A stretch of 64,000 nt of DNA from Sphingopyxis lindanitolerans (GTDB taxonomy: Bacteria > Pseudomonadota > Alphaproteobacteria > Sphingomonadales > Sphingomonadaceae): the NCBI RefSeq assembly GCF_002993885.1, contig NZ_CM009578.1, positions 62,001 to 126,000 of the forward strand, read 5' to 3'. Of the stretch, positions 9,408 through 24,815 are shown piece after piece. The notes beneath the pieces are model-generated. The model ran no database searches. It was not told the DNA's origin and saw nothing but the letters and a program-made list of their open reading frames with translations. Made by a program: the position numbers and the translations under genes. Positions within the stretch are counted from its first letter, which is position 1. Each line of letters opens with the position of its first letter.

Positions 9408-10706
9408 ATGGCCCGCTATTCATTCCGTCTGCCCGACATCGGCGAAGGCATCGCCGAGGCCGAAATCGTCGCCTGGCATGTGAAGGTCGGCGACCGCATC
9501 GAGGAAGATGCGCAGCTTGCCGACATGATGACCGACAAGGCGACCGTCGAAATGGAATCGCCGGTGTCAGGGATCGTCGTCGAACTGGCGGGCGAGGTCG
9601 GCGACATGGTGGCGATCGGCTCGACGCTGGCGGTGATCGAGACCGAGAGTGACGGCGATGTCGAAGCGTCGCCGGCGGATACGCCGGTCGAACGGCAGAT
9701 CGAGGCTGAGACGCCGGGGGGCGAAGAGGTAGTAGTTCCCCTCCCGCTTTCGGGAGGGGCTAGGGGAGGGCCTGTTGAACCCACTCCGGTCGCCGTCGAA
9801 ACAAGCCCTCGCCCGACCCCTCCCGCAAGCGGGAGGGGAGAAGAGGCGAAGGTTCTGGCTTCACCCGCCGTTCGGGCGCGCGCCAAGGATCTCGGCATCG
9901 ATCTCGGCCAGGTTCACGCCGAGGGTGACCGCGTTCGTCACGCCGACCTCGACGCATATCTCCGCTACAGCGTCGGGCAGGGCTATCATGCGCCGGGTGC
10001 CAGCCGCGCCCGCGCCGACGAGCCGGTCAAGGTCATCGGCATGCGTCGCAAGATTGCCGAGAATATGGCGGCGTCGAAGCGGGCGATCCCGCATTTCACC
10101 TATGTCGAGGAAATGGACGTCACCGCGCTCGAGGAGATGCGCGCCGACCTCAACGCCCATCGCGGCCAGCGCCCCAAGCTGACGATGCTGCCTTTTCTGA
10201 TCGTCGCGATTTGCCGCACGATCCCGCAATTCCCGATGATCAACGCGCGCTATGACGACGAGGGCGGTGTGGTCACGCGACACGGCGCGGTGCATCTTGG
10301 CATGGCGACGCAGACCGACGCGGGGCTGATGGTCCCGGTGATCCGTGACGCACAGGATATGAATGTATGGCAGCTCGCGAGCGAAATCACGCGCCTGGCC
10401 GACGCTGCGCGCACGGGCAAGGCGAAGGTAGAAGAACTGACCGGCGGCACGCTGACGGTGACGTCGCTCGGCCCGCTTGGCGGCATCGCGACGACGCCGG
10501 TGATCAACCGGCCCGAGGTTGCGATCATCGGCCCGAACAAGATCGTCGAGCGCCCGGTCTTTGACGGCGACGATATCCGCCGCGCCAAGCTGATGAATTT
10601 GTCGATTAGTTGCGACCACCGCGTCGTCGATGGCTGGGACGCCGCGAGCTACGTCCAGGCGCTCAAGAAGCTTATCGAGACGCCGATCCTGCTGTTCGCG
10701 GATTGA
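9408..10706 (+). CDS. bkdB: Branched-chain 2-oxoacid dehydrogenase E2 (lipoyl acyltransferase)
   Basis: Transfers the acyl group from lipoyl-lysine to CoA and forms the core of the complex. Domains in order: lipoyl domain (about 1-78, with the lipoylated Lys in MMTDKATVEM); a linker; the peripheral-subunit-binding domain (about 150-186, ASPAVRARAKDLGID); and the catalytic acyltransferase domain (about 207-432) with the HRVVDG active site. The linker between residues about 110 and 144 is encoded by an in-frame palindromic repeat (separate entry), giving an unusual Pro/Gly/Glu-rich stretch (VVVPLPLSGGARGGPVEP). No E3 gene follows, so lipoamide dehydrogenase must come from elsewhere. Confidence 0.95.
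   Translation: MARYSFRLPDIGEGIAEAEIVAWHVKVGDRIEEDAQLADMMTDKATVEMESPVSGIVVELAGEVGDMVAIGSTLAVIETESDGDVEASPADTPVERQIEAETPGGEEVVVPLPLSGGARGGPVEPTPVAVETSPRPTPPASGRGEEAKVLASPAVRARAKDLGIDLGQVHAEGDRVRHADLDAYLRYSVGQGYHAPGASRARADEPVKVIGMRRKIAENMAASKRAIPHFTYVEEMDVTALEEMRADLNAHRGQRPKLTMLPFLIVAICRTIPQFPMINARYDDEGGVVTRHGAVHLGMATQTDAGLMVPVIRDAQDMNVWQLASEITRLADAARTGKAKVEELTGGTLTVTSLGPLGGIATTPVINRPEVAIIGPNKIVERPVFDGDDIRRAKLMNLSISCDHRVVDGWDAASYVQALKKLIETPILLFAD
9736..9840. repeat. Palindromic repeat inserted in frame in bkdB
   Basis: Two inverted arms of about 37 nt flank a ~30-bp spacer. The left arm holds CTCCCGCTTTCGGGAG and then GGGGAGGGCCTGTT; the right arm holds AACAAGCCCTCGCCCGACCC and CTCCCGCAAGCGGGAG. 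Each arm also folds on itself. The element is nearly the same as the intergenic copy at 24708-24815. It keeps the E2 frame open in the one frame used, while TAG occurs in the left arm in another frame. It sits exactly in the flexible linker between the lipoyl and E1/E3-binding domains. Confidence 0.85.
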
Positions 10707-24707: not shown

Positions 24708-24815
24708 TCCCCTCCCGCCTGCGGGAGGGGTCAGGGGAGGGCCTGTCGAGGGACGGGCGTTCTTCCGATATGAAACATTCCCTCCCCCGACCCCTCCCGC
24801 AAGCGGGAGGGGGGA
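24708..24815. repeat. Palindromic repeat between efp and suhB (same family as in bkdB)
   Basis: Left arm with CTCCCGCCTGCGGGAG and GGGGAGGGCCTGTCG; right arm with CCCTCCCCCGACCCCTCCCG and CAAGCGGGAGGGG, separated by a ~35-bp variable spacer (ACGGGCGTTCTTCCGATATG region). It matches the bkdB copy in both arms. Its right end, GGGGGGAG at 24808-24815, lies 9 bases before the suhB ATG and is the only plausible Shine-Dalgarno sequence. Confidence 0.85.

Follow-up and report, generated by a model that had tools for sequence, protein, structure and literature searches.

In-frame copies of a dispersed palindromic repeat in bkdB and other housekeeping genes of Sphingopyxis, and different palindrome families at the same protein places

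Results

A palindromic element read through in the BkdB linker

The window, the whole stretch of DNA analyzed here, comprises 64,000 nucleotides of the 4.37-Mb genome of Sphingopyxis lindanitolerans (G000, C1:62001-126000, so that a window position is the C1 position minus 62000). It contains bkdB, the gene for the E2 component of a branched-chain 2-oxoacid dehydrogenase (Table 1), whose closest records among the matches listed are mostly from Sphingopyxis. A preliminary description of the window had reported an interrupted palindrome of ~105 bp in this gene, lying in a flexible linker, and an intergenic copy at about 24708-24815, and these points were borne out, the second copy being apparently intergenic. 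The arms in bkdB (9737-9776 and 9800-9839) are 40 nt long, 85% complementary, and separated by a 23-nt gap, and the reading frame is open throughout the element. As Pfam ends the lipoyl domain at residue 77 and starts the E3-binding domain at residue 149, the residues encoded by the element belong to the linker between the two domains. This linker has an inverted-repeat score of 22, whereas the maximum was 11 over 40 codon shuffles and 9 over the other windows of bkdB. The RNA strand of the element folds at -75.2 kcal/mol (z -4.76), and none of 200 dinucleotide shuffles was equally stable. A search of the window with Rfam at gathering scores returned three tRNAs and nothing else, and an AlphaFold2 model of BkdB (29 similar sequences) was uninformative, with a mean pLDDT of 33.4.

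Table 1. Features of the window and in-frame family-A copies elsewhere in G000 (window positions unless stated otherwise)
Feature	Position	Strand	Basis
bkdB, branched-chain 2-oxoacid dehydrogenase E2, 432 aa	9408..10706	+	ORF; Pfam
BkdB layout: lipoyl domain, linker, E3-binding domain, catalytic domain	Biotin_lipoyl 6-77, E3_binding 149-180, 2-oxoacid_dh 204-430 (residues)		Pfam
Family-A palindromic element, two inverted hairpins, read as ~residues 110-144	9737..9839		Inverted repeat, fold, genome-wide repeat
First hairpin, CCCCTCCCGCTTTCGGGAGGGG	9738..9759 (G000:C1:71738-71759)	+	Genome pattern match
Second hairpin, CCCCTCCCGCAAGCGGGAGGGG	9817..9838 (G000:C1:71817-71838)	+	Genome pattern match
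Second family-A copy, apparently intergenic	24709..24812		Inverted repeat, pattern match, flanks by eye
In-frame family-A copies, glyS	788580 and 789465 (G000)		
In-frame family-A copy, sufC	978186 (G000)		
In-frame family-A copy, coaBC	1962951 (G000)		
In-frame family-A copy, carA	3865084 (G000)		

Family A is a dispersed double-hairpin repeat

The second copy in the window has arms of 38 nt (24709-24746 and 24775-24812) that are 89% complementary; by eye, a TGA ending at ~24701 precedes it and an ATG at ~24825 follows. When the arms were sought elsewhere in the genome, as the preliminary description had proposed, the hairpin CCCCTCCCGCNNNCGGGAGGGG with up to two mismatches gave 104 forward and 103 reverse matches, and the reversed pattern gave 0 and 0. 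The significance of the repeat is judged from the exact matches, the pairing, and this genome-wide count rather than from loose matches within the window, where a 16-base form of the hairpin with two mismatches occurs 9 times, which is the chance level (shuffle mean, 7.06). Among the matches listed of the 104, we examined 60 hairpin clusters (58 from 46 fetched regions plus the 2 of the window), of which 34 contain two hairpins and measure 87-149 bp end to end. Family A is a dispersed double-hairpin repeat of ~100 bp, mostly 87-149 bp. One of the 34 two-hairpin clusters, at 978851, is a different hairpin; this core-D-like palindrome (G000:C1:978851-978976, region L135) is found a short way downstream of sufC, a gene with a family-A copy of its own. 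In another region (L171, G000:C1:3863403-3865163), several family-A-like hairpins are packed into 1.8 kb, some upstream of carA and others within it. In regions L130, L133, L137, L138, L139, L151, and L168, the family-A copy is embedded in a longer repeat that is itself dispersed, and the pairwise identity of 88-98% over 157-336 bp suggests that this longer repeat spread recently. Family A is not especially open to translation: 27 copies have on average 3.22 of six frames open, compared to 3.08 in shuffles.

REPINs are mobilized by RAYT transposases. The Y1/RAYT domain PF01797 has no match in G000, although the same search was positive in 5 of 14 known genomes used as a control, and the reading of family A as a RAYT-driven REPIN was rejected for that reason. 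A target-site duplication of at least 4 nt flanks 2 of 31 copies, with a mean of 0.97 and a maximum of 4 after shuffling. Inspection by eye of the flanks of the 34 two-hairpin clusters revealed no common GTAG or CGTC tag, GTAG being seen near the window copy only. A different family, H, which is found as inserts in SufC, GlyS, and PdhC, has many arms with CGTC at or near the outer end and others without it (by eye). The pdhC gene of G000 holds, in its own linker, a palindrome different from family A (G000:C1:586979-587054, region L173), which starts with CGTC and is one of those with this tetranucleotide at or near the outer arm end.

In-frame copies in other housekeeping genes of the same genome

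Six of the 60 clusters lie in frame and free of stops between coding flanks, in five genes: bkdB, glyS (twice), sufC, coaBC, and carA. Pfam confirms the protein families of the genes with in-frame copies; the sufC copy passed one flank test and failed a second, different one. Four further clusters have flanks in the same frame but contain a stop, which by eye stands at or in the element with a new start after it, and these look like gene boundaries. At several clusters, same-strand flanks in different frames represent either two genes or one broken gene, and family-A copies that break genes out of frame may exist.

Alignment with solved structures places the inserts where the query departs from the chain. 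In SufC the alignment breaks at the insert (query 63 to 98 versus chain 63 to 66); in CarA, query 200 to 229 corresponds to chain 180 to 182, with the alignment resuming within the tail of the insert; and in CoaBC, query 170 to 236 corresponds to chain 170 to 188. GlyS breaks near both inserts (query 370 to 411 versus 378 to 384, and 674 to 726 versus 601 to 629). In place of the insert the solved SufC and CarA have one or two residues, and opposite the 65 query residues at this point the solved CoaBC has 17, which are unaligned.

Empty and filled alleles in relatives

For sufC, carA, coaBC, and glyS we searched 40 genomes of the genus and aligned the best-scoring 30 loci per gene, a choice that favors insert-bearing alleles. 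Long alleles account for 9 of 30 at sufC (20 others read DGQD or similar, and G022 is intermediate), 10 of 30 at carA, 6 of 30 at coaBC, 12 of 30 at the first glyS place, and 19 of 29 at the second, where one row gave no parse; a full-length SufC match was found in 9 of the 40 genomes. Over these five sites outside bkdB, an inverted repeat with a score of at least 10 is present in 53 of the 56 long alleles, three of which score below 10, versus 1 of the 93 short ones. Among 212 control windows matched for gene and length, 12 reach this score, some of them perhaps overlapping the other glyS place. At the first glyS place (loci L297-L326), filled and empty alleles differ also in their flanking residues, the filled ones sharing residues that most empty ones lack. 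The impression at this place is of two lineages of alleles passed between species. Since filled and empty alleles sometimes differ in this way, the pattern may be due in part to recombination that transferred whole alleles.

This pattern of presence and absence is seen at sufC, carA, coaBC, and glyS rather than at bkdB. The expectation of the preliminary description that relatives would lack the ~35 residues in BkdB did not hold: the 120 homologs listed of 7,999 have 419-441 aa, with a single exception of 411. The length is nearly constant because the linkers of relatives contain this same element, a different palindrome, or a comparable length of Pro/Ala-rich or other sequence. A rule based on protein motifs labeled 71 of the 120 homologs, and the other 49 are Pro/Ala-rich by eye. 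At the DNA level, 49 of 96 distinct sequences (110 loci) have a linker inverted repeat that scores higher than any of 60 codon shuffles and than any other window in the gene, a count in which L084 figures as a miss (score 0, owing to parsing) though its protein reads as family C. Two species have a pair of bkdB copies that differ in this respect: in S. panaciterrulae, L078 is without and L080 with family C, and in S. tagetis, L085 has family B and L098 has none.

Different palindrome families share one place

In Sphingopyxis relatives, the spots in SufC, CarA, CoaBC, and GlyS are empty or hold family A, at some of them in another frame, or hold unrelated palindromes: the SufC place and both GlyS places have A or H, and the CarA and CoaBC places have A in two frames or I. 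Depending on the frame, family A reads as PLPLAGG..PPPTPPASGRG, SPLPLAGG..PSRKREG, or SPSRLREGLGEG..PPPTPPASGRG. The PdhC linker contains H, B, or neither, with 10 of 21 hand-picked loci scoring at least 14. SucB had no linker palindrome by eye in 13 hand-picked sequences (scores of 7-12 in a rough window). Cores of types A, B, C, D, E, H, and I were assigned in the BkdB linker, where the label "b" in seven rows reflects fortuitous matches within ordinary linkers and L114 appears to be E, not C. The core of B and I is TGTCGAAG or GTCGAG, H often goes with a CGTC tag, and C, D, and E are pyrimidine-rich variants. As A, C, D, and E, all of them pyrimidine-rich, may be kin, and B and I likewise, we limit our claim to at least three core groups in BkdB linkers that appear unrelated by sequence.

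Most of these families are themselves repeats in the genomes concerned. In genome searches that covered 50 of the 80 BkdB loci, B was dispersed in 44 of 50 genomes, C in 34 of 50, and A plus E in 49 of 50 (controls, 0-2); one subtype of H was present in 40 of 40 genomes with 2-110 copies (controls, 0-2). Counting both strands, with some loci overlapping, I occurs 107 times in 54 of 326 fetched loci and D 33 times in 13 of 326. B is rare in the genome of L085 (1 forward and 2 reverse occurrences) though it occupies the linker there. Copy number alone does not predict filling, since G005 has 70 H hairpins, yet 0 of its 6 places are filled.

We counted state changes on a tree of 36 genomes built from five concatenated proteins with gapped columns removed. 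The minima, which include losses and possible allele exchange, are 7 for bkdB, 8 for sufC, 6-7 for carA, 4 for coaBC, 7-8 for the first glyS place, and 8-10 for the second, the lower figures of the ranges being obtained with nodes below 0.9 support collapsed. Five labels were set by eye (bkdB of G011 and coaBC of G004, empty; sufC of G111 and the first glyS place of G029, H; carA of G013, A); before this correction the counts were 8, 8, 6, 5, 8, and 8-10, respectively. A single-gene tree of bkdB, with mislabeled rows included, was uninformative (45 label changes versus a shuffled mean of 51.9).

Discussion

Origin of the inserts and rival explanations

The bkdB segment is very probably a family-A copy inserted in frame, one instance of a process in which palindrome families spread, permissive linkers and loops are refilled, and new protein segments result. 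A double-hairpin copy would have entered the inter-domain linker of BkdB and would now be part of its reading frame; we infer that such segments are translated and that the host proteins tolerate them. Family A and the unrelated families (B/I, H, C, D, and E) would spread through sphingomonad genomes by a copying process. The intragenic survivors would mainly be those copies that keep the frame in a linker or loop, with selection presumably acting as a filter and with insertion presumably followed by decay. The linkers of BkdB and PdhC, the domain junctions of CarA and CoaBC, a loop of SufC, and two places in GlyS would be permissive in this sense and would have been refilled repeatedly by different families, thereby yielding new protein segments. 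A stronger version, which we put forward tentatively and think is somewhat improbable as it stands, is that these linkers and loops are standing landing places at which unrelated families swap as translated cassettes, through either preferred insertion or exchange of the resident copy. If so, intergenic repeats would be a continuing source from which the clade renews the same segments of its proteins.

The alternative that each gene received a single old insertion, from which the present families descend through divergence, loss, and allele exchange among species, accords with the scattered occurrence of the inserts on the tree of 36 genomes (a minimum of 4-10 changes per place) and with the flanks shared by filled glyS alleles at the first place and mostly absent from empty ones. 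It has to derive from a common ancestor, however, cores at one place that look unrelated (CTCCCG; GTCGAG or TGTCGAAG; GCGAAAGC with CGTC), and to accommodate family A in different frames at one place in carA and coaBC, as well as the fact that A plus E, B, C, and the H subtype are repeats in the sampled genomes and that I recurs in 54 of the 326 fetched loci; we regard it as unlikely.

A role in the mRNA, such as ribosome pausing between domains, for which the hairpin rather than the peptide would be kept, seems more improbable still. The fold is very stable and several of the places are domain boundaries, but about half of the BkdB sequences are without such a linker hairpin (49 of 96 have one), short alleles make up 93 of the 149 at the other places, with scores below 10 in 92 of them, and SucB showed none by eye in its 13 sequences. 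With so many alleles devoid of it, the mRNA hairpin was rejected as the selected trait. That Pro/Gly-rich linkers in a GC-rich genome merely look palindromic by accident of composition might be suspected from the low complexity of linkers, the Pro/Ala-rich linkers of many relatives, and the control windows that reach score 10, yet it is hardly credible: the window linker far exceeds its codon shuffles (22 versus at most 11), the Pro/Ala-rich linkers listed in that comparison score ~6-10, and the same hairpin recurs ~100 times across the genome. These three observations refute it.

The phenomenon is broader than one copy in bkdB, and what is unusual about it is that unrelated repeats have converged on the same places in proteins. 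Palindromic elements in frame are best known from Rickettsia; sphingomonads are a clade with many cultured and sequenced members, in which the same enzymes come with and without inserts in dozens of alleles and one place may contain any of several unrelated inserts. It can thus be tested directly how a non-coding repeat turns into part of a protein, and whether such segments are neutral, selected, or targeted.

Comparison with known systems

Parts of this picture have precedents. GTAG- and CGTC-tagged REPs have been reported inside open reading frames of several species, including tRNA synthetase genes of S. alaskensis, and for Xanthomonas recB different REPs at about one place have been described; the authors suggested that intragenic REPs occupy flexible linkers or loops (PMC3733652). 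Intragenic REPs in Sphingopyxis are accordingly not new, having been published in 2013 (PMC3733652). The preliminary description had proposed that a sphingomonad repeat can create protein segments, which the copies in bkdB and four other genes support; that such repeats enter genes is partly in print (PMC3733652). A literature search over titles and the beginnings of abstracts, with the supplement of PMC3733652 and most subscription papers outside its scope, returned nothing on E2 linkers or on palindromes of unrelated families at common places in a range of housekeeping genes.

Like the CGTC-tagged REPs, which are intragenic in S. alaskensis (PMC3733652), many copies of family H have CGTC at or near the arm end. 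In contrast, family A is without the tag, and E2 linkers go unmentioned in the portions of the main text of PMC3733652 considered here. With REPINs family A shares an architecture of two inverted hairpins and a spacer, as generally understood, along with a length of ~100 bp and many copies (PMC3116915), but G000 has no match to the Y1/RAYT domain (PF01797). Bacterial MITEs are likewise short and non-coding, have inverted repeats, and sometimes form in-frame fusions (PMC10969869); unlike them, family A shows no target-site duplication beyond chance (2 of 31 copies; shuffled mean, 0.97), and the search with PF01797 revealed no parent transposon. As neither a tag nor a RAYT was found, we keep family A out of both the tagged REPs and the RAYT-linked REPINs.

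The closest parallel is with the Rickettsia palindromic elements (RPEs), which lie in frame inside Rickettsia genes and for which a similar process has been thought conceivable in other prokaryotes (PMC10969869). Both are dispersed palindromic repeats of several families found in frame in unrelated metabolic genes (PMC10969869), and the six in-frame copies among 60 clusters, in five genes, show this behavior here. The likeness to RPEs drawn in the preliminary description holds for dispersal, the open frame, the linker position, and the five more in-frame copies in four genes, but not for a BkdB segment simply lacking in relatives. The comparison is one of behavior and not of sequence: R. conorii RPEs end in CGTC (PMC3733652), whereas family A is a GC-rich, double-hairpin repeat of sphingomonads without a CGTC end. 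Family A works like the RPEs. What sets the sphingomonad system apart from the RPEs is that unrelated families share the same places, and its new part is that palindromes of unrelated families have repeatedly come to occupy the same loops of a protein.
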